NCBI RefSeq assembly: GCF_002197755.1
Contig: NZ_NHOT01000002.1
Span: forward strand, 248,001-312,000
Origin: Pedobacter sp. AJM
GTDB lineage: Bacteria; Bacteroidota; Bacteroidia; Sphingobacteriales; Sphingobacteriaceae
Direction: 5' to 3'
DNA length: 64,000 bases
A program made the translations under genes and the position numbers. Below are positions 33,468 to 50,756 of this stretch, in pieces. The notes beneath the pieces were generated by a model. It had not been told where the DNA came from. It made no database searches and saw only the letters and a program-made list of their open reading frames with translations. Position 1 is the first letter of the stretch. Each line of letters opens with the position of its first letter.

Positions 33468-33548
33468 GAGAGACGTGAGACACTAGATAGGAGATATGAG
33501 AGAGACCTGGTCTCAAAGCTCATGTCTCAAATCTCAAATCTATTCAAA

Positions 33549-33794
33549 ATGAATTTAGAAATATTAACTCCAGATAAAAAAGTATTCGAAGGTGAAGTAA
33601 CAGCAGTTACTGTTCCTGGTACTTTAGGTTCTTTTCAGATCTTAAAAGACCATGCTCCGATCATCTCAACTTTGGAAGATGGAGAAGTTATTATAAAAGC
33701 AGGTAAAACTGATGAACAACGTTTTTTTATTAAAGGTGGCGTAGTTGAAGCCATTCATAATAAAATTGTCGTTCTGGCAGAAGGTATTGCTTAA
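33549..33794 (+). CDS. atpC: F1F0 ATP synthase subunit epsilon (short form)
   Basis: 81 residues from the ATG at 33549 (MNLEILTPDKKVFEGEV). The beta-sandwich domain is complete (GSFQILKDHAPIIS, RFFIKGGVVE), but the C-terminal two-helix domain that inhibits ATP hydrolysis in other bacteria is absent. Short epsilon proteins are usual in Bacteroidota. The 81-base gap after atpD is unusually rich in GAGAC/GTCTC repeats. Confidence 0.93.
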   Translation: MNLEILTPDKKVFEGEVTAVTVPGTLGSFQILKDHAPIISTLEDGEVIIKAGKTDEQRFFIKGGVVEAIHNKIVVLAEGIA

Positions 33795-34181: not shown

Positions 34182-34212
34182 TTGTTTATTAATATACCAA
34201 AAACTAAATTGG
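34182..34212 (+). promoter_or_regulatory. promoter of the ilv-leu operon
   Basis: TTG at 34182-34184, 20 bases, then TAAATTGG at 34205-34212, one mismatch from TAnnTTTG. Transcription would start near 34218, about 18 bases before the leader peptide ATG. Confidence 0.55.
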
Positions 34213-34235
34213 TATTTATAAAGAAACAGAAAACC

Positions 34236-34373
34236 ATGGCAATTCAAAGCAATACTTTTTCACATTATACTACAGCAATTTCTGCAGTAAATGTTGTATT
34301 GTTACCTGTCATTACGCCGAACCTACTCCTACTGAATATTTTATGGAGCAGTAAGCAGGCGCAGATTAAATAG
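34236..34373 (+). CDS. ilvL: ilv leader peptide (attenuator ORF)
   Basis: 45 residues from the ATG at 34236. Residues 18-36 run VNVVLLPVITPNLLLLNIL: thirteen of these nineteen codons specify Val (4), Leu (7) or Ile (2). The four consecutive Leu codons at 34323-34334 are CTA CTC CTA CTG, codons used sparingly in the surrounding genes. The ORF ends 23 bases before the first arm of an intrinsic terminator that precedes ilvE. Composition and position are those of a ribosome-sensing leader peptide; it probably has no function as a protein. The same frame is open back to 34182, but that start would coincide with the promoter. Confidence 0.85.
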   Translation: MAIQSNTFSHYTTAISAVNVVLLPVITPNLLLLNILWSSKQAQIK

Positions 34374-34429
34374 ATTTTTCAAAAAAAATGATACTTAAAG
34401 CGTCCTGACACAAACAGGACGCTTTTTTT
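34323..34429 (+). promoter_or_regulatory. transcription attenuator of the ilv-leu operon
   Basis: Terminator: AAAGCGTCCTG (34397-34407) pairs with CAGGACGCTTT (34415-34425), an 11-bp stem with a 7-base loop and seven T (34423-34429). Competing antiterminator: CAGGCGC (34356-34362), at the end of the leader ORF, can pair with GCGTCCTG (34400-34407) with one bulged base. A weaker upstream pairing, TACTG (34330-34334) with CAGTA (34349-34353), overlaps the Leu codons. A ribosome stalled on the Val/Leu/Ile run would free CAGGCGC and favour read-through. Confidence 0.8.
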
Positions 34430-34449
34430 AAATAACAAAACGCAGTATT

Positions 34450-35340
34450 ATGAAATATTATAATTCTAATACGATTATTTACCTTGACGGACGGTTTGAA
34501 AAAGCTGTAGATAGCAGTACTGATCTTTATGGTCAATCGCTACATTATGGTTATGCAGCTTTTGAGGGCATCAGGGCTTACAAAACCCATAACGGCAACC
34601 GTATTTTTAAGGCAGCAGCACATTTCGATCGTTTGGAGCGCTCCTGCCAATTAGCTAATATTCCTTTCCCCTGGGATAAGCAAGAATTAATCAAAGAAAC
34701 TTATAAGCTATTAACCCTGAATAAATTAAAAGACGCTTATATCCGCCCTTTGGTTTTTTGCCACCCAAACATGAAATTGAATGGCCCGAGCGGGGTTTCT
34801 ATTTTAATTTGTGCCTGGGATTGGGATGCTTACTCAGGTAATAAACTGTTGAAATTAACCATTTCGGATTACGAACGACCAAACCCGAAATCAACTCCTA
34901 TGGAAGCAAAGTTGAGTGGAAATTACATAAACTCCATCCTGGCAACTACCGCAGCGAATATTAAAGGCTACGATGAGGCTTTGCTTTTAGATATGCATGG
35001 ATTTGTTGCTGAAGCATCTGGTGCAAATATCTTCATTGAAAAAGATGGCAAAATTTATACGCCGTCATTAGGGAATATTTTACCCGGAATTACCAGGGCA
35101 ACAGTGAAAGAACTTTGTACCATATTAGATATTGAATGTATGGAGAAAAAAATAACGGTAGAAGATTTAAAAAATGCCGATAGTGCTTTTTTATGTGGAA
35201 CGGCCACAGAAATTGCGGGCATTGCTTCCATTGATGACATTGTTTTCCGCAACCTTTGGAGGGAGTCTATTGGTTATACCATTCAGCGTGCTTACAAAAA
35301 TCTGGTATTGGAAAAAGTAAACTATGAGGTAATTATCTAA
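34450..35340 (+). CDS. ilvE: branched-chain amino acid aminotransferase
   Basis: 296 residues, fold-type IV PLP enzyme. SLHYGYAAFEGIRAY near 30-44, the PLP lysine region EAKLSGNYINS near 152-162, ASGANIFIEKDG near 190-202 and LPGITRATVKEL near 214-225 are all present. It transfers the amino group from glutamate to the keto acids of Val, Leu and Ile. It is the first structural gene after the attenuator. Confidence 0.95.
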   Translation: MKYYNSNTIIYLDGRFEKAVDSSTDLYGQSLHYGYAAFEGIRAYKTHNGNRIFKAAAHFDRLERSCQLANIPFPWDKQELIKETYKLLTLNKLKDAYIRPLVFCHPNMKLNGPSGVSILICAWDWDAYSGNKLLKLTISDYERPNPKSTPMEAKLSGNYINSILATTAANIKGYDEALLLDMHGFVAEASGANIFIEKDGKIYTPSLGNILPGITRATVKELCTILDIECMEKKITVEDLKNADSAFLCGTATEIAGIASIDDIVFRNLWRESIGYTIQRAYKNLVLEKVNYEVII

Positions 35341-35345
35341 AAATA

Positions 35346-35933
35346 ATGAATCAAGAGATCAACCAGCAATTTCCGAATACCTACCAGCAAATTTTACGTG
35401 CGACTAAAGCATCAGGATTTGATATGGCATCTGATGTGCTGACTTGTTCCTTATTAAGAACACTTGCAAGTTCAAAACCTGGCAGCACTTTTCTGGAATT
35501 AGGTACAGGAACAGGTTTATCAACTTCATGGATATTGGATGGAATGGATGCATCATCTACGCTGACATCTATTGACAATGATGAAAAATTTTTAAGCATT
35601 GCGAAGGATTTCTTGGGAAATGATACCCGGGCAAATATAATTTTAACGGATGGAGGCGATTGGATTAAAAAAAATAAACACAAAAAGTTTAATTACATCT
35701 TTGCAGATACCTGGAATGGAAAGTATTTGCTTTTGGATGAAGTCATTGCCATGTTGAATCCAGGAGGACTTTATATTATAGATGATATGCTTCCTCAATT
35801 AAATTGGCCTGACGGTCATCAGGAAAAAGCAATCAAGTTAATAGCAGATTTAGAATCGCGCAATGATTTGCAAATAACTAAACAGGTATGGGCCTCAGGC
35901 ATTGTAATCGGCGTAAAAAAAACAACAAACTAA
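35346..35933 (+). CDS. class I SAM-dependent methyltransferase (O-methyltransferase-like)
   Basis: 195 residues. Motif I is FLELGTGTGLSTSW near 48-61, followed by LTSIDNDEKFL and FNYIFADTWNGKY; the layout resembles catechol-type O-methyltransferases. It starts five bases after ilvE, so it is almost certainly co-transcribed and perhaps coupled. It has no known step in branched-chain amino acid synthesis, and the substrate is unknown. Confidence 0.78.
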   Translation: MNQEINQQFPNTYQQILRATKASGFDMASDVLTCSLLRTLASSKPGSTFLELGTGTGLSTSWILDGMDASSTLTSIDNDEKFLSIAKDFLGNDTRANIILTDGGDWIKKNKHKKFNYIFADTWNGKYLLLDEVIAMLNPGGLYIIDDMLPQLNWPDGHQEKAIKLIADLESRNDLQITKQVWASGIVIGVKKTTN

Positions 35934-35959
35934 CAGAACCAGTATATACATTTTAAACC

Positions 35960-37642
35960 ATGAGCGAATTAAACAAATACAGTAAAACATTTACACAAGA
36001 TCCCACACAACCGGCGGCGCAAGCCATGCTTTATGGAATCGGATTAACCGATGCGGATATGTCAAAGGCACAGGTTGGCATTGCAAGCATGGGTTACGAT
36101 GGCAATACCTGCAATATGCACTTAAATGACCTTGCAAAAGATGTTAAAGCCGGGGTTTGGAAAAATGATTTAGTGGGTTTGGTTTTTAATACCATTGGTG
36201 TAAGTGATGGAATGAGTAATGGTACTGATGGTATGCGTTATTCATTGGTGAGCCGTGATGTGATTGCAGATAGTATTGAAACCATTTGCGGGGGGCAGTA
36301 TTATGATGGTATTATTTCTATTCCGGGATGTGATAAAAATATGCCGGGAGCAATTATGGCAATGGCCCGTTTAGATCGCCCGTCTATCATGGTTTATGGT
36401 GGTACAATTGCACCAGGACATTACAAAGGAGAGGAATTGAATATCGTTTCTGCCTTTGAAGCTTTAGGACAAAAAATTTGCGGTAATTTATCGGAAGAAG
36501 ATTATCAGGGCATCATCAAACATACTTGTCCGGGTGCAGGTGCCTGCGGTGGCATGTATACGGCCAATACGATGGCCTCGGCAATTGAGGCTTTAGGAAT
36601 GAGTTTGCCTTACTCCTCTTCGAACCCGGCCATTAGTCCGGAAAAAAAACAAGAGTGCTTAGATGCCGGGAAATACATTAAAGTTTTATTGGAAAAAGAT
36701 ATTAAGCCATCTGATATCATGACGAGAAAGGCATTTGAAAATGCCATTCGTTCCATCATCATATTAGGCGGAAGTACCAATGCCGTATTGCACTTTATCG
36801 CAATGGGCAAAGCCATCGGCATCGACATTACACAGGATGATTTCCAGAGAATGAGCGATATAACCCCTGTACTGGCCGATTTTAAACCAAGTGGTAAATA
36901 CTTAATGCAAGATTTACACCAGTATGGCGGCATCCCTGCAGTATTGAAATACTTGCTAAACGAGGGTTTATTACACGGCGATTGCTTAACCGTAACCGGC
37001 AAAACAATGGCTGAAAACCTGGCTGATGTAAAATCAATTATGGATTATGATCAGAAAATTGTTCAGAAATTAAGCGAACCCATCAAACCAACTGGTCACT
37101 TGCAAATCCTTTACGGCAACTTAGCCGAAAAAGGTTCAGTTGCAAAAATCTCCGGTAAAGAAGGTGAAAAGTTCGAAGGTCCGGCGCGTGTATTTGATGG
37201 TGAGCATGATTTAATTGCAGGTATTTCAAGTGGTCGTGTTCAGCCTGGTGATGTAATTGTGATTAAAAATTCTGGTCCGGTAGGTGCACCGGGCATGCCT
37301 GAAATGTTGAAACCTACTTCTGCTATCATTGGTGCTGGTTTAGGTAAATCAGTTGCTTTGATTACTGATGGACGTTTTTCAGGTGGTACACACGGTTTTG
37401 TAGTTGGGCACATCACTCCGGAATCATACAAAGGTGGCTTAATCGGCTTGGTGGAAGATAACGACCCAATTTTGATTGATGCCGTAAATAACATCATCAG
37501 TTTGCAAGTAAGCGAAGAAATTATCGCAGCACGAAGAGCAAAATATGTTCAACCAGAATTAAAAGTTACAAAAGGTGTTTTATACAAATATGCTAAAACA
37601 GTATCAGACGCAGCAAGTGGCTGTGTAACTGACGAATACTAA
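35960..37642 (+). CDS. ilvD: dihydroxy-acid dehydratase
   Basis: 560 residues, complete. Iron-sulfur ligand regions are GNTCNMHL near 49-56, [12 protein letters not shown] near 118-130 and [18 protein letters not shown] near 190-208. The C-terminal part has [19 protein letters not shown]. It dehydrates dihydroxy-isovalerate and its isoleucine-pathway homologue. The ORF6N gene follows after 77 bases. Confidence 0.97.
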
Positions 37643-37719
37643 ACCCTATCCCCTTTGAAGGGAGAAGGAAATAACAAAAAGTCATCCCGACTATAAATTA
37701 ATATTTAAATGAAAAAGAT

Positions 37720-38313
37720 ATGCAAATTATTAAAAGCATTGAAAGTAGAATTTATACAATCAGGGATGAAAGGGTAATGTTAGATTTTGATCTGGCATCA
37801 CTTTACGAAGTAGAGACAAAAGTATTGAATCAGGCAGTGAAACGAAACATCACACGCTTTCCTGAAGATTTTATGTTTCAACTTACTTCAAAAGAATGGG
37901 AAAGTATCCGATCACAAATGGTAACCGGATGTGAAAAAGTTAACCCATTAAAAATTGAGTTGACTAATAACCCCAACTTGAAGTCACAATTTGTGACTTC
38001 AAGTTGGGGAGGCACCAGAAAAATGCCATATGCTTTCACAGAGCAAGGCGTAGCCATGCTAAGTGGCGTATTGAAGAGTGAAAAGGCAATTAATATGAAT
38101 ATTGCCATCATGAGAGTTTTTGTTGATGTTCGAAAAATTTTGCTAAAACAAAGTAATATGAATGAACAACTAACAGCAATTAAAGAACGGATTGGTGAAC
38201 ACGATGTTCAATTGAATGAACTATATGATGCAATGGAAAATTTAATAGACGAAAAAATCACTCAGTTGAAATGGAAAGATAGAGAGCGGATTGGGTTTAA
38301 AATCAAAGAATAA
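37720..38313 (+). CDS. ORF6N domain-containing protein
   Basis: 197 residues. The N-terminal ORF6N domain (about 5-95) reads IESRIYTIRDERVMLDFDLA then YEVETKVLNQAVKRN. A conserved PYAFTEQGVAMLSGVL follows near 105-120, and the C-terminus is a helical, charged tail. ORF6N proteins are DNA-binding-like factors frequent in phages and Bacteroidota genomes; their function is unclear. It lies between ilvD and ilvB in the same orientation, 21 bases before ilvB. An extraordinary palindrome lies inside the coding sequence. It may be an insertion that became part of the operon. Confidence 0.85.
   Translation: MQIIKSIESRIYTIRDERVMLDFDLASLYEVETKVLNQAVKRNITRFPEDFMFQLTSKEWESIRSQMVTGCEKVNPLKIELTNNPNLKSQFVTSSWGGTRKMPYAFTEQGVAMLSGVLKSEKAINMNIAIMRVFVDVRKILLKQSNMNEQLTAIKERIGEHDVQLNELYDAMENLIDEKITQLKWKDRERIGFKIKE
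37971..38009. repeat. 19-bp perfect inverted repeat inside the ORF6N gene
   Basis: CCCCAACTTGAAGTCACAA, one T, then its exact reverse complement. It encodes NPNLKSQFVTSSWGG just before the conserved aromatic motif. As RNA it could form a 19-bp hairpin, although a one-base loop would force the innermost pairs open. Confidence 0.95.
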
Positions 38314-38334
38314 TAGAACCGTAAAAATATAATT

Positions 38335-40086
38335 ATGGAAACTGCACAAGATACACTACAACAAACCGAGACTAAGGCAGAAGCCTCAAAAACCCTCTTT
38401 AAAGGAACAGGATCTCAGGTTTTGTTGAATGGATTAATTGAAGAGGGTGTAACCACCATCTTTGGCTATCCCGGCGGTGCCATCATGCCAATTTATGATG
38501 CACTTTATGACTATGCTGACAAATTAGAACATATTTTGGTCCGCCATGAGCAAGGTGGTATCCATGCCGCACAAGGTTTTGCAAGGGCAAGTGGTGAAGT
38601 TGGTGTAGTGTTTGCCACCAGCGGCCCTGGTGCTACAAATTTAGTTACTGGCTTAGCCGATGCCCAGATTGATAGCACGCCGCTAGTTTGTATTACCGGA
38701 CAAGTTTTTGCTCATCTTTTGGGAACTGATGCTTTCCAAGAAACAGATGTCATTAACATTACTACGCCAGTTACCAAATGGAACTATCAGGTTACTGATG
38801 CAAAAGAAATTCCTGAAGTTTTGGCCAAAGCTTTTTATATCGCTAAAAGCGGCAGACCAGGACCGGTTTTAATTGATATTACCAAGAATGCACAATTACA
38901 GGTAGAGGAATTTCCTGAATATGTAAAATGCAATCATATCCGCTCTTACCGCCCTAAGCCCAAAGTTCGTGTAGAATATATTGAGCAAGCAGCTGCACTA
39001 ATCAACGAAGCAAAAAAACCATTTGTTCTTTTCGGACAGGGTATTGTTTTAGGCAAAGCTGAAACAGAATTTAAAGCTTTTATAGAGAAAACTGGCATTC
39101 CAGCGGCCTGGACTATTTTGGGCGAAAGCGCGATCCCCACCGCCCATCCTTTAAATGTAGGGATGTTAGGAATGCATGGCAACTATGGCCCTAATGTTTT
39201 AACCAATGAATGTGATGTTTTAATCGCAATCGGGATGCGTTTTGATGATCGGGTAACCGGGCGTTTAGATAAATATGCAAAACAAGCCAAAATCATTCAT
39301 TTGGATATAGACCCAGCTGAAATTGATAAAAATGTTAAAGCTGATGTAGGGGTTTGGGGCGATTGTAAGGAAACTTTACCCCAGTTAACCAAACTGGTGC
39401 ATGAAAACAAACATGAAGACTGGCTGGCCAAATTCAGAGAATATAACCAACAGGAAATTGATCAGGTAATTACTCCTGAACTGTATCCAACCAGTGAGGA
39501 AATGACTATGGGCGAGGTATTGCGCAACATCAATGAAATTTGTGGTGGCGATGCCGTAATTGTGACTGACGTTGGTCAGCACCAGATGGTGGCCTGCCGT
39601 TATGCCAAGTTTAATAATACCCGTAGTAATATTACATCTGGTGGTTTAGGTACCATGGGCTTTGGCTTACCTGCAGCAATTGGTGCTAAATACGGTGCTC
39701 CTGATAAAACGGTAATCGCCATTATTGGAGATGGTGGTTTCCAGATGACCCCACAGGAACTGGGTACCATTATGCAATTCGGGGCAGCTGTTAAAATCCT
39801 GATTTTAAACAATCGTTTTTTAGGGATGGTTCGTCAATGGCAACAATTATTTCATGATAAACGTTATTCATTTGTGAACATTACCAGTCCTGATTTTGTG
39901 GCTTTAGCTAAATCTTATTACATCGAAGCTGATAAAGTTGATGATCGTGCTAACCTCAGAAAAGCTTTGGAAACGATGATCAGCCACGAGGGTTCTTATC
40001 TGTTAGAGGTGATGGTAGGAAGAGAAAATAACGTTTTCCCTATGGTTCCTCAAGGAATGAGTGTAAGCGAAATCAGGTTGAAGTAA
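38335..40086 (+). CDS. ilvB: acetolactate synthase large subunit
   Basis: 583 residues, a TPP enzyme. The N-terminal domain has the catalytic Glu in HEQGGIHAAQGFARASG near 70-86. A central FAD/ROK-like domain follows, and the TPP motif IGDGGFQMTPQELGT is near 465-480. It condenses pyruvate to acetolactate (Val, Leu) or pyruvate with 2-ketobutyrate (Ile). The regulatory subunit gene follows. Confidence 0.97.
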   Translation: METAQDTLQQTETKAEASKTLFKGTGSQVLLNGLIEEGVTTIFGYPGGAIMPIYDALYDYADKLEHILVRHEQGGIHAAQGFARASGEVGVVFATSGPGATNLVTGLADAQIDSTPLVCITGQVFAHLLGTDAFQETDVINITTPVTKWNYQVTDAKEIPEVLAKAFYIAKSGRPGPVLIDITKNAQLQVEEFPEYVKCNHIRSYRPKPKVRVEYIEQAAALINEAKKPFVLFGQGIVLGKAETEFKAFIEKTGIPAAWTILGESAIPTAHPLNVGMLGMHGNYGPNVLTNECDVLIAIGMRFDDRVTGRLDKYAKQAKIIHLDIDPAEIDKNVKADVGVWGDCKETLPQLTKLVHENKHEDWLAKFREYNQQEIDQVITPELYPTSEEMTMGEVLRNINEICGGDAVIVTDVGQHQMVACRYAKFNNTRSNITSGGLGTMGFGLPAAIGAKYGAPDKTVIAIIGDGGFQMTPQELGTIMQFGAAVKILILNNRFLGMVRQWQQLFHDKRYSFVNITSPDFVALAKSYYIEADKVDDRANLRKALETMISHEGSYLLEVMVGRENNVFPMVPQGMSVSEIRLK

Positions 40087-40162
40087 GCTGAAAGACTAAA
40101 GCGAAAAATAGCATAAACAAAACCTTCATGGCCTTTGTGCCTTGGTGGTAAAAATTTTGGAC

Positions 40163-40801
40163 ATGAGTACTGAAAATACAATACAACATAAAATAGACAA
40201 GGCTGATTTAGACGGAAAGCAGGAATACACCATCACCGTATATGCAGAAAACCGTATTGGTCTGTTAAACAGGATTGCGATCATTTTCTCTAAAAGAAAA
40301 ATAAATATCGAAAGTTTAAACACTTCGCCATCAGAAATAGATGGGATTCACCGTTTTAACATTGTAATTACGGAAAGTTACGAAGTAGTGAGAAAACTTG
40401 CACGCCAGATTGAAAAGCAAATTGAGGTATTGAAAGTCTATTTCAACACTAATGAGGAAATCATCTGGCAGGAACTGGCACTATATAAAGTTTCTACTGA
40501 TGAAATTGCAGAAAAAGTAACGGTAGAGCGTTTGCTTAGGCAATATGGCGCAAGTGCCGTGGTAATCCGGAAAGATTATACGGTTTTTGCTGTAACCGGA
40601 CACAGAGAGGAAACAGATGCTCTGGTAAAGGCCCTGGAGCCATATGAGTTAATTGAATTTGTTCGTTCTGCAAGAGTTGCCATTATAAAAGACAGTGCAG
40701 GCTTCCACGAAAAGCTGAAAGAATTTGAAGCCTTTGAACCAGGGGAAGAATTAGTAGAGAATGAATTTTTAGATAAGGGAGAGAAGATTTTTACGATGTA
40801 A
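40163..40801 (+). CDS. ilvN: acetolactate synthase small (regulatory) subunit
   Basis: 212 residues from the ATG at 40163 (MSTENTIQHKIDKADL); an earlier start would fall in the intergenic repeat. An ACT domain (about 20-95, TVYAENRIGLLNRIAIIFSK, then KINIESLNTSP) is followed by the IlvN C-terminal domain with VERLLRQYGASAVVIRKD. It gives valine feedback to the large subunit. It is somewhat longer than E. coli IlvN/IlvH because of N- and C-terminal extensions. The gap before it contains a CTTTGTGCCTTGGTGGTAAA stretch, a small dispersed motif. Confidence 0.93.
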   Translation: MSTENTIQHKIDKADLDGKQEYTITVYAENRIGLLNRIAIIFSKRKINIESLNTSPSEIDGIHRFNIVITESYEVVRKLARQIEKQIEVLKVYFNTNEEIIWQELALYKVSTDEIAEKVTVERLLRQYGASAVVIRKDYTVFAVTGHREETDALVKALEPYELIEFVRSARVAIIKDSAGFHEKLKEFEAFEPGEELVENEFLDKGEKIFTM

Positions 40802-40885
40802 TACAAAGGTGAAAGGTAGAAAGGCATAAGGTGAAGGTAAACAACACGATGCTTAGCGCTCTTTGCGGTTAAAAATTAAAGAAAT

Positions 40886-41251
40886 ATGAAATGCAATAAA
40901 ACCATACCGATTTTAAGAATATTCGATTATGATAAAGCAATCGAGTTTTATGTAAACTGGCTTGGATTTAAAATAGACTGGGAATACCCCTTGGAAAAGA
41001 ATTCCCCGGTTTATATCCAGGTTTCATTAAACGGTCTTGAACTTCATTTAAGCGAACACCATGGAGATAGCGCCCCTGGTGCGCACGTTTATGTTGACTG
41101 TGTAGGTTTAAAGGAATTCCATAAAGAAATAACAGCAAAGAATTACAAATATAATAGTCCAGGCTTAGAGGAAACTTTTCATGGAACCTGGGCAGTAACC
41201 ATAAATGACCCATTCTTTAACCGGATCACTTTTAACGAAGAGCGAAACTAA
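40886..41251 (+). CDS. VOC (glyoxalase/bleomycin-resistance) superfamily protein
   Basis: 121 residues, one vicinal-oxygen-chelate domain: IPILRIFDYDKAIEFYVNWL near 7-26, LELHLSEHHGD near 52-62, a short C-terminal VTINDPFFNRITF. These domains include glyoxalases, dioxygenases and drug-binding proteins; this small form is often annotated as a bleomycin-resistance-like protein. It lies in the ilv operon with no evident pathway role. Confidence 0.78.
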   Translation: MKCNKTIPILRIFDYDKAIEFYVNWLGFKIDWEYPLEKNSPVYIQVSLNGLELHLSEHHGDSAPGAHVYVDCVGLKEFHKEITAKNYKYNSPGLEETFHGTWAVTINDPFFNRITFNEERN

Positions 41252-41280
41252 GCTGAAAATACAAAGATTAAAGAAAAAAT

Positions 41281-41742
41281 ATGAACGAAGTATTTGATTT
41301 CATAATAAACTCACGTAAGGCATTTATTAAGTTAATAGATGGCTTAACAATCGAAGAATTGAATAAAATTCCCGATGGATTTAACAACAACATCATCTGG
41401 AACTTTGGCCATATTGTAGTGAGCACGCAAACGCTTTGTTATGTTCGTACCGGTATATTACAAGATGCTGCTTCGGTAAAATTTAACGAATATTATAAAA
41501 AAGATACAAAGCCATCTTATACAGTAACTAAAGAAGAAGTAGCAGAATTAAAAGCTACTGCATTACAGAGCATTGAAAAAATTAAGGAAGATTATGCAAA
41601 TGGAAAATTTTCCATCATTACTCCTTTCACAACAGCTACCTATGGCGTGCAGATGAACAGTATAGAAGATGTACTGATCACCACGATTGGTCATGATAAC
41701 TTGCATTATGGCTATGCATGGGCACAAAAAAATAAAATTTAA
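41281..41742 (+). CDS. DinB family protein
   Basis: 153 residues, a four-helix bundle with metal-ligand type histidines: WNFGHIVVSTQTL near 40-52 and IGHDNLHYGYAW near 136-147. DinB-like proteins include thiol transferases and many of unknown role. It follows the VOC gene after 29 bases and precedes ilvC after a repeat-rich gap. No role in the pathway is known. Confidence 0.8.
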   Translation: MNEVFDFIINSRKAFIKLIDGLTIEELNKIPDGFNNNIIWNFGHIVVSTQTLCYVRTGILQDAASVKFNEYYKKDTKPSYTVTKEEVAELKATALQSIEKIKEDYANGKFSIITPFTTATYGVQMNSIEDVLITTIGHDNLHYGYAWAQKNKI

Positions 41743-41763
41743 AGATTGAAGATGAATGATATG

Positions 41764-41886
41764 ATCTGTGAAATCAACCCATCTGTGTAATCAAACCGAA
41801 GGAAAAAATTGGAAGATATCAGATGTAAAATGGATAAAAAATCTGCATAATCACTATATCTGTGTAATCAAACCGAAGGAAAAAAA
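41764..41886 (+). repeat. ATCTGTGTAATCA repeats upstream of ilvC
   Basis: The stretch holds ATCTGTGAAATCA, ATCTGCATAATCA and two copies of ATCTGTGTAATCAAACCGAA, 77 bases apart, each followed by GGAAAAAA. It fills most of the 186-base gap before ilvC. Confidence 0.75.
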
Positions 41887-41928
41887 ATATATAAACCGAT
41901 AATTAAATAGAAATAAACCAATAAAACG

Positions 41929-43410
41929 ATGTCAAATTATTTTAACACATTACCTCTCAGAGAAAAATTAAACCAACTTGGTGTTTGCGATTTCATGGAT
42001 AGCAACGAATTTTTAGATGGCGTTAGCGCTTTAAAAGGCAAAAAACTGGTAATTGTTGGTTGCGGCGCGCAGGGCTTAAACCAGGGTTTAAATTTAAGAG
42101 ATAGTGGTTTAGATGTAAGCTATACGTTGCGCAAAGAGGCGATTGAAGGCAAGAGAGATTCATGGAGAAACGCAACTGAAAACAACTTTAAGGTTGGTAC
42201 CTACGAAGAATTAATCCCAACTGCAGATGTAGTAATCAACCTTACGCCTGATAAACAACATACAGCTGTGGTGAATGCCATTATGCCATTGATGAAAGAT
42301 GGTGCTACTTTATTATATTCTCACGGTTTTAATATCGTGGAAGAAGGCATGCAAATCCGTAAAGATTTAACGGTGATTATGGTGGCTCCTAAATGCCCGG
42401 GCAGTGAGGTGAGAGCCGAATATGTTCGTGGTTTTGGTGTACCTACTTTAATTGCTGTACACCCTGAAAACGATCCTCAAGGTAAAGGCTTGGCACAAGC
42501 TAAAGCCTATTGCGTAGGTACAGGCGGTCACAGGGCTGGTGTATTAAAATCATCTTTTGTTGCAGAGGTTAAATCTGATTTAATGGGCGAGCAAACCATC
42601 CTTTGTGGTTTATTGCAAACAGGTTCTATCCTATCATTCGATAAAATGGTCGAAAAAGGAATCGATGCAGGATACGCTTCCAAACTGGTTCAGTATGGTG
42701 TTGAGGTAATTACTGAAGCTTTAAAGCAAGGCGGTATTACAGCCATGATGGACAGGTTAAGTAACGTTGCCAAAATCAAAGCTTTTGAAATCTCTGAAGA
42801 ACTAAAAGACATCATGCGTCCGTTGTTTCAAAAACACCAGGATGATATCATGAGTGGCGAGTTTAGCCGCACCATGATGGAAGACTGGGCTGCCGGAGAC
42901 AAAAACTTGTTAAAATGGAGAGCTGAAACAGGTGAAACTGCTTTCGAAAAAACACCCGCCGGCGATGTTAAAATTGGTGAGCAGGAATATTTTGACAACT
43001 ATACACTTATGGTGGCATTTGTACGTGCCGGTGTAGAACTGGCTTTTGAAACGATGGTACAGGCTGGTATTAAACCAGAATCTGCTTACTATGAATCACT
43101 GCATGAAACACCTCTTATTGCAAACACCATCGCCCGTAAGAAATTGTTCGAAATGAACCGTGTAATTTCTGATACCGCTGAATATGGTTGTTACTTATTT
43201 GATCAGGCTTGTAAACCATTATTGGCTGACTTCATGAAAAAGGTAGACACTGATTTGGTTGGTAAAAACTTTAATGAAGGCAAGGATGGCGCTGTAGACA
43301 ATAGAAAATTAATTGAGGTGAATGAGGCCATCCGCTCACATGAAGTAGAACAAATTGGTGCTACTTTACGCAAAGCAATGACTGCAATGAAAGCCATTAA
43401 AACTGCATAA
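41929..43410 (+). CDS. ilvC: ketol-acid reductoisomerase, class II
   Basis: 493 residues, the long E. coli-like form with a duplicated knotted C-terminal domain. NADPH-binding [20 protein letters not shown] near 39-58, [19 protein letters not shown] near 151-169 and [20 protein letters not shown] near 265-285 are visible. It isomerises and reduces acetolactate to dihydroxy-isovalerate, and the isoleucine homologue. It is complete. Confidence 0.97.
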
Positions 43411-43417
43411 CCTCACC

Positions 43418-43453
43418 CCTAAATCCCCTCTCTTTTAGTAGAGGGGATTTAGG
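43418..43453. repeat. 14-bp hairpin element between ilvC and leuC
   Basis: CCTAAATCCCCTCT and AGAGGGGATTTAGG pair perfectly across an 8-base loop. No U-tract follows. A second G-rich small palindrome (CCCCCATTAGGGGG) lies near 43492. This is probably an intra-operon stability or partial-termination element. Confidence 0.7.
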
Positions 43454-43517
43454 ACAGGTCTTAGAAAAATAATAATTACAAACTTAAATTCCCCCATTAG
43501 GGGGCTAGGGGGTAAAA

Positions 43518-44930
43518 ATGTCAAAAACATTAGTAGAAAAAATTTGGGATGCTCACGTTGTAAAAAGTGAAGAAGGATTTCCTGACATTTTATACATCGA
43601 TACACACCTCATTCACGAGGTAACTTCTCCTCAGGCTTTTGATGGTTTGCGCAAAAGAGATTTGCCTGTCTTGCGTCCGAAACAAACGGTGGCAACAGCC
43701 GACCATAATGTGCCTACTTTAAACCAGTCGTTACCCATTAAAGAGGAACTTTCCCGCTATCAGGTGGATATGCTGACTAAAAATTGTGCAGAATTCGGCA
43801 TTGAACTTTATGGTTTAGGACATCCATTCCAGGGAATTGTTCACGTCATCGGTCCTGAATTAGGTATAACCTTACCAGGAAAAACAATGGTTTGCGGCGA
43901 TAGTCACACCTCTACACATGGTGCTTTTGGTGCAATTGCTTTCGGTATCGGCACCTCGCAGGTAGAACAGGTTTTCGCCACGCAATGTTTATTGCAATCG
44001 AAACCCAAAACCATGAAAATTGAGGTAAATGGTGAACTTGGTAAAGGCGTTGGCGCAAAAGATATTATTCTTTATATCATTTCACAAATCTCTGCAGCAG
44101 GTGGTACCGGATACTTTATTGAATATGCAGGTTCGGCAATAGAGGCTTTAAGTATGGAAGCCCGGATGACGATCTGTAACATGAGCATTGAAATGGGTGC
44201 CAGAGGAGGATTAATTGCACCAGATCAAACCACTTTCGATTATATTAAAGGAAGAGAGTTTGCGCCCGCAGGTGAAGAATGGGACAAATCATTAGCCTAC
44301 TGGAAAACTTTATACAGCGATGCTGATGCAAAATTTGATAGCGTACTCACTTTTGATGCAGCGGATATTGCGCCAATGATTACTTATGGAACCAACCCTG
44401 GAATGGGTATGGGCATCCAGGAACATATCCCCGCAACCAATGCACAACCAGAGAAAGAAAAGCTTTCTTATCAAAAGGCACTGGATTATATGGGCTTCGA
44501 TGATGATGCATCCTTAATCGGCAAACCGGTCGATTATGTTTTCATTGGCAGTTGTACCAATTCACGCATTGAAGATTTACGCGAAGTAGCAGATTTCGTT
44601 AAAGACAAACGCAAGGCAGATAACGTAACGGTTTGGATTGTTCCAGGCTCAAAACAAGTGGAACAACAGGCTAAGAATGAAGGTTTAGATCGGATTTTTG
44701 AAGCAGCAGGTTTCCAGTTACGCGAACCAGGTTGCAGCGCATGTTTAGGTATGAATGAAGATAAAATCCCTGCTGGTAAATATTGTGTGTCTACATCGAA
44801 CAGAAACTTTGAAGGTAGACAAGGACAAAATGCCCGTACACTCTTGGCTAGTCCGTTAACGGCTGCCGCCGCCGCTGTTACTGGTGTAATTACTGATGTG
44901 AGGGAAATGCTTTTGCAAGAGCAAGGATAA
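43518..44930 (+). CDS. leuC: 3-isopropylmalate dehydratase large subunit
   Basis: 470 residues, aconitase family. [11 protein letters not shown] near 57-67, [14 protein letters not shown] near 129-142, and the iron-sulfur ligands in [15 protein letters not shown] near 345 and [13 protein letters not shown] near 405 are intact. With LeuD it isomerises 2- to 3-isopropylmalate. Two unrelated genes separate it from leuD. Confidence 0.97.
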
Positions 44931-44995
44931 TAAAGAAAGATTAAAGATTGTAAAATACCTATTCATTAGTAATTGCGATAACAGAAACATAAAAC

Positions 44996-45283
44996 ATGAT
45001 TTTAGAGGTTGCGATATTACATGTAAAAGCAGGTTTATCTGCTGATTTTGAAAAGGCCTTTAGCGAAGCTCAAAAAATCATTTCATCAATGAATGGCTAC
45101 ATTTCGCACCAATTAAAAAAATGCCTTGAAGAAACTGGTAAATATATTCTGCTGGTCAATTGGGAAACATTGGAAGATCATACTGAAGGCTTTAGGGGTT
45201 CAGCTGCCTATCAGGATTGGAAAAATTTATTACATCACTTTTATGATCCTTTTCCAACAGTTGAACATTATACTGAGGTTTAA
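44996..45283 (+). CDS. antibiotic biosynthesis monooxygenase (ABM) fold protein
   Basis: 95 residues, one ferredoxin-like ABM domain: ILEVAILHVKAGLSADFEKA at the start, YILLVNWETLEDHTEGFRGS in the middle, and an HHFYDPFPTVEHY ending. Such proteins include quinone-forming monooxygenases and heme-degrading relatives; the activity cannot be assigned. It is co-directional in the leu part of the operon. Confidence 0.8.
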   Translation: MILEVAILHVKAGLSADFEKAFSEAQKIISSMNGYISHQLKKCLEETGKYILLVNWETLEDHTEGFRGSAAYQDWKNLLHHFYDPFPTVEHYTEV

Positions 45284-45339
45284 GGTAACAAAATCTTAAA
45301 TGTACATAGGTTGTAAAATACGAAGGCTATAAAATAAAA

Positions 45340-46029
45340 ATGGAAAAATTACAAGAAATACAAAATCAGTTTAATGCCGTATCGGAAAAGTACGATAGGC
45401 AAAGGCGTTTTCTGATTCCTTGTTTTGATGATTTTTATGGAACAGCTTTAGCCTTATCTGAACAAGTTTCAACTGTAAAGAACATTTTGGACGTTGGTGC
45501 CGGAACAGGATTAATGAGTGCTTTTTTTCAAGAAAAATATCCCGACGCTAAAATCACACTTGTAGATATTTCTCAGGATATGCTTAAAAAAGCAAAAGAA
45601 CGCTTCGTAGGAAATGAGAACATCAGCTTTTTGAATGCGGATTTTGCAACCATTGATTTACCTGAAAATCATTACGATTTGGTAGTTTCCGGCTTAGCCA
45701 TACATCATTTACCAGATGAATTGAAACAACAGTTATTTGGGAAAATCGCAAAAACACTAAAATCTGATGGCTGGTTGATTAACGCCGACCAGGTTTTAGG
45801 TGAAACCGATTTAGCAGAAAAGATTTATACTGAAAACTGGAAAAACCACGTAAAGCAACATCCAAATTTAACAGAAGATGAAAAGCAAAGTGCCTTCGAT
45901 CGAATTAAAGTTGATATGATGGCATCATTAAACAACCAGTTAAAATGGTTGGAAGAAGCAGGATTGCAAAATGCAAACTGTTATTATCAGTATTACAATT
46001 TTGTAGTCTTTGCTGCAAATAAACAATAA
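45340..46029 (+). CDS. class I SAM-dependent methyltransferase
   Basis: 229 residues. Motif I is NILDVGAGTGLMSAFF near 48-63, followed by ITLVDISQDMLKKAKERF and YDLVVSGLAIHHL; the UbiE/small-molecule methyltransferase type. It lies between the ABM gene and leuD. The substrate is unknown, and no branched-chain step needs it. Confidence 0.82.
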   Translation: MEKLQEIQNQFNAVSEKYDRQRRFLIPCFDDFYGTALALSEQVSTVKNILDVGAGTGLMSAFFQEKYPDAKITLVDISQDMLKKAKERFVGNENISFLNADFATIDLPENHYDLVVSGLAIHHLPDELKQQLFGKIAKTLKSDGWLINADQVLGETDLAEKIYTENWKNHVKQHPNLTEDEKQSAFDRIKVDMMASLNNQLKWLEEAGLQNANCYYQYYNFVVFAANKQ

Positions 46030-46035
46030 TTAATC

Positions 46036-46080
46036 AATGAAATCACTTTAATCGGTGAAATCTTTTAAACCAGTGAAATC
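46036..46080 (+). repeat. GTGAAATCA-type repeats before leuD
   Basis: Three successive variants of the dispersed motif (AATGAAATCACTTTAATC, GGTGAAATC, AGTGAAATCA) fill the gap before leuD. Confidence 0.5.
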
Positions 46081-46088
46081 ATATTAAA

Positions 46089-46673
46089 ATGAAGAAGTTC
46101 ACAACATTAACATCGGCCGTAGTGCCCTTAAATATAGAAAACATCGATACCGATCAGATTATTCCGGCGAGGTTTTTAAAAGCGACTACGCGTGAAGGTT
46201 TTGGCGAAAACTTGTTCCGCGACTGGCGTTACGAAAATGATAATCAACCTAAAGCTGATTTCGTTTTAAACGACCCGACTTATAGCGGTAAAATTTTGGT
46301 TGCCGGTAAAAACTTTGGTTGCGGAAGTAGTCGTGAACATGCAGCCTGGGCTATTCAGGATGCAGGTTTTGATGCTGTGATCAGCAGCTTCTTTGCTGAT
46401 ATCTTTAAAGGCAATGCGCTAAATAATGGTTTATTGCCCATTCAGGTGAGTGAAGAATTCCTGTCCCAGATTTTTAAAGCGGTGGGTCAGAATGCTAAAT
46501 CGCCACTGGAAGTTGATTTGGAAAATCAAACGGTAACCATTATTGAAACCGGTGCTCAGGAATCTTTTGAGATCAATCCTTACAAAAAATCATGCCTGAT
46601 TAACGGTTATGATGATATCGATTTCATCTTAAACCAAAAACAATTAATTGAAGAATTCGAGCAAGCAAGATAA
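46089..46673 (+). CDS. leuD: 3-isopropylmalate dehydratase small subunit
   Basis: 194 residues. [14 protein letters not shown] near 19-32, [16 protein letters not shown] near 75-90 and the later [17 protein letters not shown] are the swivel-domain signatures. It is the partner of LeuC. Its stop overlaps the start of the ATPase gene by one base (TAATG). Confidence 0.97.
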
Positions 46674-48163
46674 TGTTTAAACCATTCGTTCACATACAGA
46701 ATTTAAATCTGAGTTACCACAACAAAGTGGTGCTAAAGGATCTGTATTGGGCAATGAATGTTTGCGAAAATTATGTAATTGGTGGTAAAAGCGGAACTGG
46801 AAAAACTTCGTTAGCAAAAGCAATTGCAGGTTTAATTCCAGCTCAGGGAAGTATTGAGATTGATTTTGATGAATTGAGCACACTACCAAAAGAAGTACTT
46901 TATGTAGAAAGCTGGTACCAGTTTAAAAACTTAGAAGGTGTTGCCAATTTTTATTACCAGCAACGTTATACCAGTCAGCAGGCTAAAGAAACTTTAACCG
47001 TTCATGCAGAGTTGGTCAGTTATGGTAAAGAAAAAGGGCTTCACTTCGATCAGGTAGAACCGATATTAGAAGCTTTAGGTTTTGCGACATTTGCAAGTTC
47101 ACAATTAATTGAATTATCCAGCGGCGAACATAAAAAACTGCAACTGGTTAAAGCACTTTGGTTAAAACCACAGTTATTAATTGTCGACCAACCATATACA
47201 GGTTTAGATGCGGCTTCGCGCAAGAACCTTAACATTTTATTGGACCGGGTTGCTGAAGAAGGGGTTCAATTGATTTTGATCTGTAATGAAAGTGAATTAC
47301 CAACCTGTATCAATTCTTTTGCCGAAATAAGAGATGGACAATTAGTTCAAGTAGATGCTTTAGAACCCTCTGTCAGTTCCGAAATCCATTTAAGAGAAAT
47401 TCCGGATTTCTTAAAAGAATCGCCGGTTTATAGTTCGCAGAATATTGTAAAAATGGTTAATGTGAACATTAGCTATGGCGAAAAACAGGTATTGAAAAAT
47501 ATCAACTGGGAAGTTAAGGCTGGCGAAAAATGGCTTTTACAAGGGCATAATGGTTCTGGAAAATCGACCTTGTTAAGCTTGGTAAATGGTGATCATCCAC
47601 AATCTTATGCCAACGAACTTTATTTATTCGGCAACAGGCGTGGAAGTGGTGAAAGCATCTGGGACATTAAACAGCATATAGGCTTAATCTCTCCCGAGTT
47701 TCACTGGTATTTTGATCCAACCGCTACTGTTTGGCAAAGCATCGCCTCGGGCTTTTATGATTCCGTAGGTTTATTTCAGCAACTGCCCTATTCAAAAAGT
47801 GAACAGGTAAATGAACTGATCAACTATTTTGGATTAACAGAAAGCCGAAATGAGTTATTAAGTACGCTCCCATTGGGTCAACAACGATTGGTTTTACTGG
47901 CCAGAACCATTATCAAAAATCCGGAGCTGTTAATTCTCGATGAACCCTGCCAGGGATTGGATCAGCAGCAAACACAACATTTTAACCAACTGGTTGATGA
48001 ACTGTGTAGCAATGGCATGACCTTAATTTACGTTGGCCATTTTGAATCGCAGTTGCCAACCTGCATAGAAAAAAGAATATTATTAGAAAAAGGCGAGGTA
48101 AAAGTCGTCGAAAGTTTAAATACCAAAACTCGTCATTACGAGGTACAAAGCAATTCCATCTAG
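46673..48163 (+). CDS. ModF-like protein with two ABC ATPase domains
   Basis: 496 residues, two nucleotide-binding domains in tandem and no membrane part. Domain 1 has Walker A GGKSGTGKTS near 37-46 and signature LSSGEHKKLQL; domain 2 has GHNGSGKST near 297-305 and the Walker B LLILDEPCQGLD near 422. FGNRRGSGESIWDIKQHIGL is typical of ModF. ModF-like ATPases are proposed to act in molybdate metabolism or as soluble regulators. It starts on the last base of leuD, so it is translationally coupled to leucine genes, for an unknown reason. Confidence 0.85.
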   Translation: MFKPFVHIQNLNLSYHNKVVLKDLYWAMNVCENYVIGGKSGTGKTSLAKAIAGLIPAQGSIEIDFDELSTLPKEVLYVESWYQFKNLEGVANFYYQQRYTSQQAKETLTVHAELVSYGKEKGLHFDQVEPILEALGFATFASSQLIELSSGEHKKLQLVKALWLKPQLLIVDQPYTGLDAASRKNLNILLDRVAEEGVQLILICNESELPTCINSFAEIRDGQLVQVDALEPSVSSEIHLREIPDFLKESPVYSSQNIVKMVNVNISYGEKQVLKNINWEVKAGEKWLLQGHNGSGKSTLLSLVNGDHPQSYANELYLFGNRRGSGESIWDIKQHIGLISPEFHWYFDPTATVWQSIASGFYDSVGLFQQLPYSKSEQVNELINYFGLTESRNELLSTLPLGQQRLVLLARTIIKNPELLILDEPCQGLDQQQTQHFNQLVDELCSNGMTLIYVGHFESQLPTCIEKRILLEKGEVKVVESLNTKTRHYEVQSNSI

Positions 48164-48219
48164 AAAATATAGTGCAAAAAATTGCTTCGTAACTGGCAAA
48201 GACGATAATATATCATACA

Positions 48220-49311
48220 ATGAAGAAGAACATTTTAGTAATACCTGGAGACGGTATCGGACCTGAAGTAACCACATGGGGAAAAGCAGCATTAGAGAAA
48301 ATTGCAGAAATTTTCGGACATGAGTTTGTTTTTGATGAAGCTTTAATGGGACATGCAGCAATTGAAGTTACAGGCGAGCCACTGCCTGACGAAACTTTAG
48401 ATAAAGCAAGAAAAAGTGATGCCATCCTCTTTGGTGCCATTGGTCACGCCAAATACGATAACGACCCAAGCTTAAAAGTAAGACCTGAACAGGGCCTGCT
48501 AAAAATCCGCAAAGAACTGGGTCTTTTTGCCAATCTCCGTCCGATATTACTATTTGATGAACTTCTGGAAGCCTCAAGCATTAAACCGGAAATTTTAAGG
48601 GGAACCGATATTTTGTTCTTCCGCGAATTGACAGGAGATGTTTATTTCGGAGAAAAAACCCGTTCAGAAGATAGGAACACGGCTTCCGATTTAATGATCT
48701 ATCACCGTTACGAAGTGGAGCGTATTGCACATAAAGCCTATCAGGCGGCGCAGCAACGCAATAAGAGATTATGTTCGGTAGATAAAGCAAACGTTTTAGA
48801 GAGTTCACGCCTATGGCGCGAAACCATTCAGGAGATTGCAAAACAATACCCAGATGTAGAAACGGAGCACATGTTTATTGATAATGCGGCCATGCAATTA
48901 ATCAAAAATCCAAAGAAATTTGATGTGGTTTTAACTGCAAATTTATTTGGCGATATCTTAACTGATGAAGCTTCTCAAATTGCGGGATCAATGGGCATGT
49001 TAGCCTCCGCATCTGTTGGAGAAAGCACCGGTTTCTTCGAGCCTATTCATGGCTCTGCACACGATATTACAGGTAAAGATTTAGCAAATCCATTGGCCTC
49101 TATCCTATCAGCAGCATTAATGCTTGAAATTGGCTTCGGGCTCAAAGAAGAAGCTAAATTATTGGTAGACACGGTTGATGAGGTTTTGAAAGAAGGTTTC
49201 AGAACGCACGACATTGCTGATCAAAGCACTAACCGATTTAAAGTTTTAGGCACTGCCGAAATGGGCAAATTGGTATTAAAATTCTTATCTCAAAAAATTA
49301 CTCACTCTTAA
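48220..49311 (+). CDS. leuB: 3-isopropylmalate dehydrogenase
   Basis: 363 residues. [11 protein letters not shown] at 7-17, [19 protein letters not shown] near 126-145 and [19 protein letters not shown] near 237-255 are the signatures of the NAD-dependent beta-decarboxylating dehydrogenases. It makes the direct precursor of leucine. It ends ten bases before leuA. Confidence 0.96.
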
Positions 49312-49321
49312 ATTTAAGATT

Positions 49322-50482
49322 ATGATTCACGACCCAAACAAAGTTTATATATTCGACACAACCTTACGTGATGGTGAGCAGGTTCCGGGCTGCCAGTTAG
49401 ATACAAACCAGAAGGTAGAAATCGCAAAATCTCTTGAACGACTAGGCGTTGATGTTATTGAAGCTGGTTTTCCCGTATCCAGTCCGGGAGACTTTAACAG
49501 CGTAATCGAATTATCAAAAGCTGTAACCAACCCTATTATTTGTGCGTTAACACGTGCCAATAAAAATGATATTGATGTAGCAGCTGATGCTTTACGTTAT
49601 GCAAAAAGACCACGGATTCATACCGGGATTGGTTCTTCTGATTTCCATATCAAACATAAATTTAACAGTACCCGCGAAGAAATTTTAGAACGTGCTGTAG
49701 AAGCGGTAAAATATTCGAAAAAATTTGTAGAGGATGTAGAGTTCTACGCAGAAGATGCCGGCCGTGCAGATATTGAATTTTTAGCTAAAATGGTTGAAGC
49801 GGTAATTGCAGCTGGTGCTACTGTAGTCAATATTCCGGATACAAATGGTTATTGCCTTCCAGACCAATACGGTTCTAAAATTCTTTATCTAAAAGAAAAC
49901 GTAAAAAATATTGACAACGCAATTATTTCAGTTCACTGCCACAATGATTTAGGCCTGGCTACGGCAAATTCAATTTCAGGCTTACAGCATGGTGCCCGGC
50001 AGGTAGAATGTACCATTAACGGTATCGGTGAACGTGCAGGAAATACGTCGATGGAAGAAGTAGTGATGATTTTAAAAACCCATAAAATTTTGGGATTAAA
50101 CACCCAGATTGATGCTACCCGCTTTTACGAAATGAGCCACATGATCAGAAACCAAATGAATATGCCTGTTCAACCAAATAAAGCGATTGTTGGTGGAAAT
50201 GCGTTCTCGCACAGTTCCGGCATTCACCAGGATGGTTTCTTGAAAAACCGTGAAAACTACGAAATTATTAAACCTGAAGATGTAGGTTTCCCGGATGCAA
50301 CAATTGTATTGACAGCGAGGAGCGGTCGACATGCATTGAAACACCATCTGGATCGCTTAGGCCATAGATTGGAAAAAGACAATCTGGATATGGTTTATAA
50401 ACAGTTTTTGGTTTTAGCAGATGGCAAACAAGGCATTAATGATCATGATTTAAACCAGCTGGTTGCCCTGCATTTAGCATAG
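49322..50482 (+). CDS. leuA: 2-isopropylmalate synthase, short form
   Basis: 386 residues. The catalytic TIM barrel is complete: [16 protein letters not shown] at 11-26, [15 protein letters not shown] near 202-216 and the [15 protein letters not shown] stretch. The linker with [13 protein letters not shown] is present, and the protein ends about 50 residues later. The C-terminal LeuA dimer domain that binds leucine in typical enzymes of about 500 residues is missing, so classical feedback inhibition may be absent. A homocitrate-synthase-like role is possible, but adjacent leuB, leuC and leuD argue for LeuA. Confidence 0.92.
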
Positions 50483-50592
50483 AACTTGAAAGGTTAAAGA
50501 CTAAACTAAAAGTGAGCCGCGAATGGCGTGAAAAGTTAAGGGTTTTGCATTAAACAGTTAGCATTTTCAATTTAATGCACTGACTTAAGCTT

Positions 50593-50756
50593 CCTAAACC
50601 TGATAGCAGTGGAAATACTTTTTAATTGCAGCAACCTTAAATATCATGTGATGCTGAGGCACGAAGCATCTGGAACCGATGAAAATGGATCTTCATTCTT
50701 CTGCAGGACAGGAGTTTTAAAAAGATTGGAACGAATAGCAGGACTGCAATAACCAA
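50593..50756 (+). repeat. dispersed CTAAACCTGATAGCAG element, between leuA and ilvA
   Basis: It begins CCTAAACCTGATAGCAGTGG and ends near ACGAATAGCAGGACTGCAAT. The same two ends occur in reverse orientation at 58111-58196. An inner ATGCTGAGGCACGAAGCAT palindrome lies at 50650-50668. The gap 50483-50826 holds nothing else recognisable and shows no trace of a lost LeuA C-terminus. Confidence 0.5.

Follow-up and report, generated by a model that had tools for sequence, protein, structure and literature searches.

The ilv/leu genes of Pedobacter sp. AJM are in all probability (we estimate about 0.9) controlled by ribosome-mediated transcription attenuation, carried out by a putative leader at positions 34236-34373 on the plus strand of the window, as we call the whole 64,000-nucleotide stretch of DNA that was analysed. 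RNA polymerase would start at about 34218, with a ribosome trailing it into the leader ORF. In the presence of ample Val, Leu and Ile, this ribosome would reach the stop codon and cover the motif CAGGCGC in the last codons, upon which a terminator would form and end transcription ahead of ilvE. If any of the charged Val, Leu or Ile tRNAs ran short, the ribosome would stall on the respective codons, and the free CAGGCGC could pair with GCGTCCTG, preventing terminator formation and allowing the ilv/leu genes to be read. A preliminary description of this DNA had already proposed that the leader, terminator and alternative pairing constitute an attenuation switch, and this prediction from sequence is now supported by comparison across the genus.

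Leader, terminator and gene run in the window

The promoter that had been claimed upstream of the leader was recognised by eye on the plus strand as TTG (34182-34184), a spacer of 20 nt and TAAATTGG (34205-34212), which we take to be a promoter of the Bacteroidota type; it was not flagged in a sigma-70 scan of the window. The sequence TAAATTG recurs 5' of the leader ORFs in most of the genus loci inspected (L034-L058 being inspected only in part), and the transcription start would be located at about 34218. An ORF resembling atpC (33522-33794, named by inspecting its sequence) lies 5' of the promoter. The -7 element is spanned by an inverted repeat, ATACCAA-N8-TTGGTAT (34194-34215), and because the corresponding sequence ACCAAAAACTAAATTGGT is found again in many relatives, this site may represent an operator.

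The leader ORF reads directly from an ATG at 34236-34238 through 45 sense codons (MAIQSNTFSHYTTAISAVNVVLLPVITPNLLLLNILWSSKQAQIK) to a TAG at 34371-34373. As initially described, 13 of the 19 consecutive codons 18-36 (34287-34343) specify Val, Leu or Ile, including a run of four Leu codons, CTA CTC CTA CTG, at 34323-34334; the leader thus has codons for each amino acid that the pathway makes. In the window, at least 10 Val/Leu/Ile codons per 15 occur in 4 of the 425 small ORFs of all six frames, the leader included, and at least 8 per 15 in 30 of them.

The intrinsic terminator expected ahead of ilvE was located at 34397-34429 on the plus strand. Its stem of 11 pairs extends from 34397 to 34425 and is followed by a run of seven T (34423-34429), the first three of which also belong to the stem. 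The proposed alternative pairing is likewise present: CAGGCGC (34356-34362), situated within leader codons 41-43, is predicted to pair with the GCG/CCTG of the terminator 5' arm GCGTCCTG (34400-34407), leaving U34403 bulged, so this arm is common to terminator and antiterminator. The entire leader of the window is more structured than its shuffled versions (z -2.90), and the folding of the antiterminator-only stretch was equalled by 22 of 200 shuffles (z -1.09). Taken by itself, the window therefore provides modest evidence that does not strongly beat chance, and it is the conservation in the genus which places the putative attenuator far above chance.

The leader stop codon and the ATG of ilvE (34450-35340, plus strand; PF01063, branched-chain aminotransferase) are separated by 76 nt containing the terminator. 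ilvE is the first gene of the presumed operon and is followed on the same strand (35346-50482) by genes for a methyltransferase, ilvD, an ORF6N-domain protein, ilvB, ilvN, a glyoxalase, a DinB protein, ilvC, leuC, others, leuD, an ABC ATPase, leuB and leuA. The ten proteins from ilvE to leuC were assigned by Pfam, and leuD, leuB, leuA and the remaining genes past leuC were named by sequence inspection, as was the ORF for the threonine dehydratase ilvA (50827-52086, plus strand), which is possibly the end of the operon. No strong terminator-like site was seen on the plus strand between 34450 and 52000, and the whole ilv/leu run may be read as a single transcript. The ORF6N-domain (37720-38313), glyoxalase-like (40886-41251) and DinB-like (41281-41742) genes are interspersed among the ilv/leu genes, and a Flavo-1 RNA, an Rfam family of unknown function, is found between leuA and ilvA (50592-50749).

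Conservation of the leader and of the arm-terminator match

Among named species, those of Pedobacter are closest by IlvE, with identities of up to 97%. We searched 99 genomes of the genus, the window's own included, and detected IlvE in 95; the four genomes without a match are 80-84% complete. We inspected about 1000 nt upstream of ilvE at all 95 loci and took the most Val/Leu/Ile-rich ORF within 400 nt as the leader, a choice that favours the resulting count: every locus (95/95) contained an ATG-initiated ORF with at least 8 Val/Leu/Ile codons per 15, followed by a terminator with a T run before ilvE. The Val/Leu/Ile codons are thus retained, as is the pairing at most loci (see below); a loss of either in relatives would have spoken against the preliminary description. 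Four further ilvE loci of the genus came from the family search; three contained a leader (L098, L099, L104) and one (L102) did not. Within this one genus, IlvE falls into two sharp classes which parallel two leader types: group 1 comprises 41 loci with IlvE at least 87% identical to that of the window and leaders of 42-45 codons, and group 2 comprises 54 loci with IlvE at most 73% identical and leaders of mostly 27 codons. In 14 of the 95 loci (L004, L019, L020, L022-L025, L027, L029, L031-L033, L037, L040), the terminator is separated from ilvE by about 97 extra nt that include a hairpin. Because similar stretches match 2-5 times in each of three genomes, with the ilvE site included and some matches partial and weak, this insert may be a dispersed repeat.

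For the pairing, the whole leader of each locus was searched for the segment most complementary to the terminator 5' arm. This segment ended within -20 to +6 of the leader stop in 93 of the 95 loci, the exceptions being L024 and L073, compared with 18.6% in shuffled leaders. When the ORF ends and terminator 5' arms were aligned with the 3' arm left out, RNAalifold returned the arm helix as the only consensus structure, with a weak energy of -2.5 and a z of -5.9 in group 1 (41 loci) and an energy of -8.7 and a z of -19.2 in the 36 group 2 loci with leaders of 27-28 codons (the other 18 being excluded); both z values refer to column shuffles, a lenient control in that stacking is broken as well. 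Adding the 3' arm turned the consensus into the terminator. The predicted antiterminator helix would accordingly exclude the terminator, which is the arrangement expected of a ribosome-mediated attenuator.

The arms and terminators were also found to have changed jointly between lineages, with the match remaining intact in GGACGC/GCGTCC (L019), GGCGCT/AGCGCC (L058), GGAGACG/CGTCTCC (L068) and, in another genus (g18), GAAGGCATG/ATGCCTTC; the three-way match is retained as the sequences vary by lineage. The loci's own arms pair better than shuffled arms (mean z -2.5), and swapping arms between loci weakened the pairing from -12.8 to -11.3 kcal/mol, a mean cost of about 1.4, and at 82 of the 95 loci the own pair was superior to the average swap. 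The modest size of this effect is explained by the GCG core which the arms have in common. Group 1 leaders moreover end in two different reading frames, shifted by 1 nt against each other (23 and 18 of the 41 loci), and the peptide ends differ accordingly (KRTQFK, KKTGSF and similar), whereas the RNA is the same and the stop codons lie within a few bases. Because the shift alters the peptide end and retains the RNA, the C-terminal codons seem to serve the RNA rather than the peptide.

Counted from its first base, the last regulatory codon precedes the arm by 15 nt in the window and by a median of 14 nt over the 95 loci, with 67 at 11-17 nt and 28 at less than 11 nt. A ribosome stalled at the last regulatory codon would just leave the arm free, and a ribosome that had reached the stop codon would mask it. 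A 1:2 hairpin in the leaders is possible. It is missing from the RNAalifold consensus and visible in single leaders, where it is formed by the Leu codons. Compared with synonymous shuffles, its mean z was -1.0 and -1.3 in the two groups, and p values of at most 0.05 were reached in 8 of 41 and 15 of 54 leaders. The arms pair upstream with a mean probability of 0.60 in leaders folded alone, a value obtained without a control. In the window, a CGCC upstream of the arm could pair with the arm's GGCG, but the remaining 40 leaders of group 1 have a different sequence at this site. A leader-internal hairpin, CTGC-N4-GCAG, was considered and rejected (88% of cells paired, yet 76% when slid by +3).

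If no 1:2 helix is acting, a leader that is not translated would be expected to permit read-through by default, contrary to the E. coli trp leader. Bacteroidota might then possess a two-helix attenuator with the arm in the last leader codons, no anti-antiterminator, and read-through as the default of the untranslated leader; we regard this as possible but rather doubtful, and the upstream pairing of the arm makes default read-through less likely.

Codon choice and related leaders

We compared the codons in the dense 15-codon core of the leaders with those of 36 long ORFs of the window; because the leader sequences are related, all of the following percentages are only descriptive. CTA and CTC together account for 46% (group 1) and 25% (group 2) of the core Leu codons against a background of 9%, GTC for 32% and 55% of the Val codons (background 6%), and ATT for 96% and 93% of the Ile codons (background 59%). 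TTG is less frequent than in the background (12% and 2% vs. 20% of Leu codons), CTG is the commonest core Leu codon in group 2 (41% vs. 18%), and GTG represents 33% of the core Val codons in group 1 (vs. 20%). The leaders thus broadly favour CTA, CTC and GTC, which are rare elsewhere in the window, although not all of the favoured codons are rare. According to ARAGORN, the Leu tRNAs of the window's genome consist of two with anticodon taa and one each with caa, tag and gag. The selective tRNA charging theory, as set out in a passage of PMC1183508, states that leaders use those codons whose charged tRNA is most sensitive; for Leu in E. coli, the same passage rates CUA as best, CUG as a reasonable alternative and UUA/UUG as poor. 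The codon bias of the leaders is broadly in line with this theory.

Outside the genus, we inspected 56 loci of the family upstream of ilvE or ilvD (16 + 40). Judged by reading, 13 of them contain a leader, a terminator and an arm: all nine examined of genus g18, both of g7, one of g22, and L107 of g21. Partial sets occur in four further loci (L109, L171-L173), and 39 of the 56 show no leader-terminator pair, two of these loci (L108, L119) having a terminator only. Other ORFs reaching 8 in 15 among the 40 family loci were sorted by eye, and many of them proved to be AtpC fragments. An AtpC-like coding sequence is found upstream in 14 of the 40 loci, both with and without a leader, which suggests gain or loss of the leader at a fixed position. 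From other families, 40 ilvD loci were inspected, and 20 of them contained an ORF with at least 7 Val/Leu/Ile codons per 15. Fifteen of these were tested (L202, L203, L220, L236 and L239 being left out); a terminator was present in 14, and the best arm ended within -20 to +8 of the stop codon in 11. For the other-family and family loci combined, the arm is near the stop in 23 of 27, a count without a shuffle control, and several of the other-family pairings are weak, at about -6 kcal/mol. Four loci of family f4 (genus g29) and five of f22 show both leader and terminator clearly. Because ilvD may not be the first gene, the absence of a leader at ilvD loci means little. Leaders of this kind also occur elsewhere in the family, in some of its other genera, and in two further families of Bacteroidota.

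The same genome contains candidate leaders before two other amino acid operons. trpE is preceded by MINNIHTWLWQSNSNELRWLRMNKI with three Trp codons (L194, 698-840), followed by a strong terminator and with an arm, GCGCTGGCTG, near the ORF end, a design which looks similar to that of the ilv leader. hisG is preceded by MNLTLNHHLHLHHRR with 5 His per 15 codons (L123, reverse complement, 1224-1305). No matching arm was seen in this leader, and the only hairpin after it is weak, A+T-rich and accompanied by a T run, so the his leader may operate by a different mechanism from the ilv leader.

Competing explanations, known systems and implications

The ORF might encode a small functional hydrophobic peptide, the hairpin being merely its terminator. 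Codons 20-33 do look membrane-like and are well conserved, with a mean pairwise identity of 0.82 (an ungapped comparison of 40 leaders out of the 41 in group 1), but the identity drops to 0.41 for codons 2-15 and 0.51 for the last six, and between groups and genera it is the composition rather than the sequence that is kept. The preference for rare codons and the one-base shift of the C-terminal frame over an unchanged RNA also argue against a selected peptide, which would moreover leave the match between arm and terminator unexplained, and we consider this explanation very improbable. An effect of the leader on translation rather than termination, for instance by reinitiation at ilvE, is slightly less probable still. 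Short leader genes near structural genes have indeed been proposed to raise translation via reinitiation, as described in a passage of PMC4833913, but the leader stop codon is separated from the ilvE start by 76 nt and an intrinsic terminator, and this terminator is kept with its T run in 95/95 loci.

The least probable of the alternatives is a metabolite riboswitch or T-box in which the ORF is incidental. The excess of structure in the window's leader over shuffles (z -2.90) and the position of a terminator before an amino acid operon would fit such an element. Searching the leader region for T-boxes and other cis-regulators of Rfam gave no match at the gathering cut-off, however, and the consensus consists only of the terminator and an arm helix inside the ORF, whose Val/Leu/Ile codons are conserved. 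Several results count against attenuation: the arm helix of the window is bulged and equalled by 22 of 200 shuffles, the effect of swapping arms is modest, the arm distance is below 11 nt at 28 of 95 loci, L102 has no leader, 39 of the 56 family loci outside the genus show no leader-terminator pair, and the commonest core Leu codon of group 2, CTG, is not a rare one. Attenuation by a translating ribosome remains the reading we prefer.

Enterobacterial ilv and leu leaders possess a Val/Leu/Ile-rich ORF, a terminator and an alternative antiterminator, and include CTA among their Leu codons. The Pedobacter leader is like those of ilvGMEDA, ilvBN and leu in its Val/Leu/Ile-rich ORF, the terminator before the operon, the predicted antiterminator and the use of CTA. 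Unlike in the E. coli trp leader, where the arm follows the stop codon, the Pedobacter arm is contained in the final codons of the ORF itself, and unlike in enterobacterial leaders, neither a conserved 1:2 hairpin was shown nor an Rfam match at cut-off obtained. The score for the Rfam family Leu_leader (RF00512) was 17.8 bits, below the gathering cut-off of 50, which fits the earlier proposal that this leader is independent in sequence from the enterobacterial ones. Vitreschak 2004 is said to mention Bacteroidetes/Chlorobi.

The enterobacterial ilvGMEDA, ilvBN and leu attenuators are listed as known systems in a passage of PMC1183508. According to a 2010 survey (PMC2965389), the only groups with demonstrated leader peptides of which its authors were aware were Proteobacteria and Actinobacteria, to which they added Firmicutes. 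Among open-licence PMC papers, we found one clear precedent in the phylum, a transcriptome study of Flavobacterium psychrophilum which reports strong indications that leader peptides attenuate operons for amino acids (PMC9723704). It concerns the same phylum and proposes the same mechanism upstream of amino acid biosynthesis operons; its section on these elements names those of pheA and hisG, with no ilv leader and no comparative pairing test. A map of B. thetaiotaomicron also contains sORFs described in passing as reminiscent of leader peptides (PMC7366714). Leader attenuation of branched-chain amino acid genes is further known from ilvBNC of Corynebacterium glutamicum, a member of another phylum, for which the relevant passage assumes three hairpins (PMC11857589), compared with the two helices supported for the Pedobacter leader. 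Since attenuation was already suggested for flavobacterial amino acid operons (PMC9723704), the novelty is limited: the mechanism is textbook, and what appears to be new is a well-supported ilv leader in Pedobacter with an unusual position of the arm.

For Pedobacter, these results provide a well-supported, testable candidate regulator of the Ile/Leu/Val gene cluster, and they show similar leaders in three families of Bacteroidota. Through their codon bias, the leaders allow the selective tRNA charging theory presented in part of PMC1183508 to be tested in bacteria other than E. coli. Because the attenuating ribosome has to follow RNA polymerase closely, the leaders may serve as natural probes of transcription-translation coupling in Bacteroidota, whose mRNAs are described in a passage of PMC6847099 as being without Shine-Dalgarno sequences. 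The spread of the tentative two-helix attenuator, if true, would mean that translation stays abreast of transcription in this phylum without Shine-Dalgarno sequences in its mRNAs.
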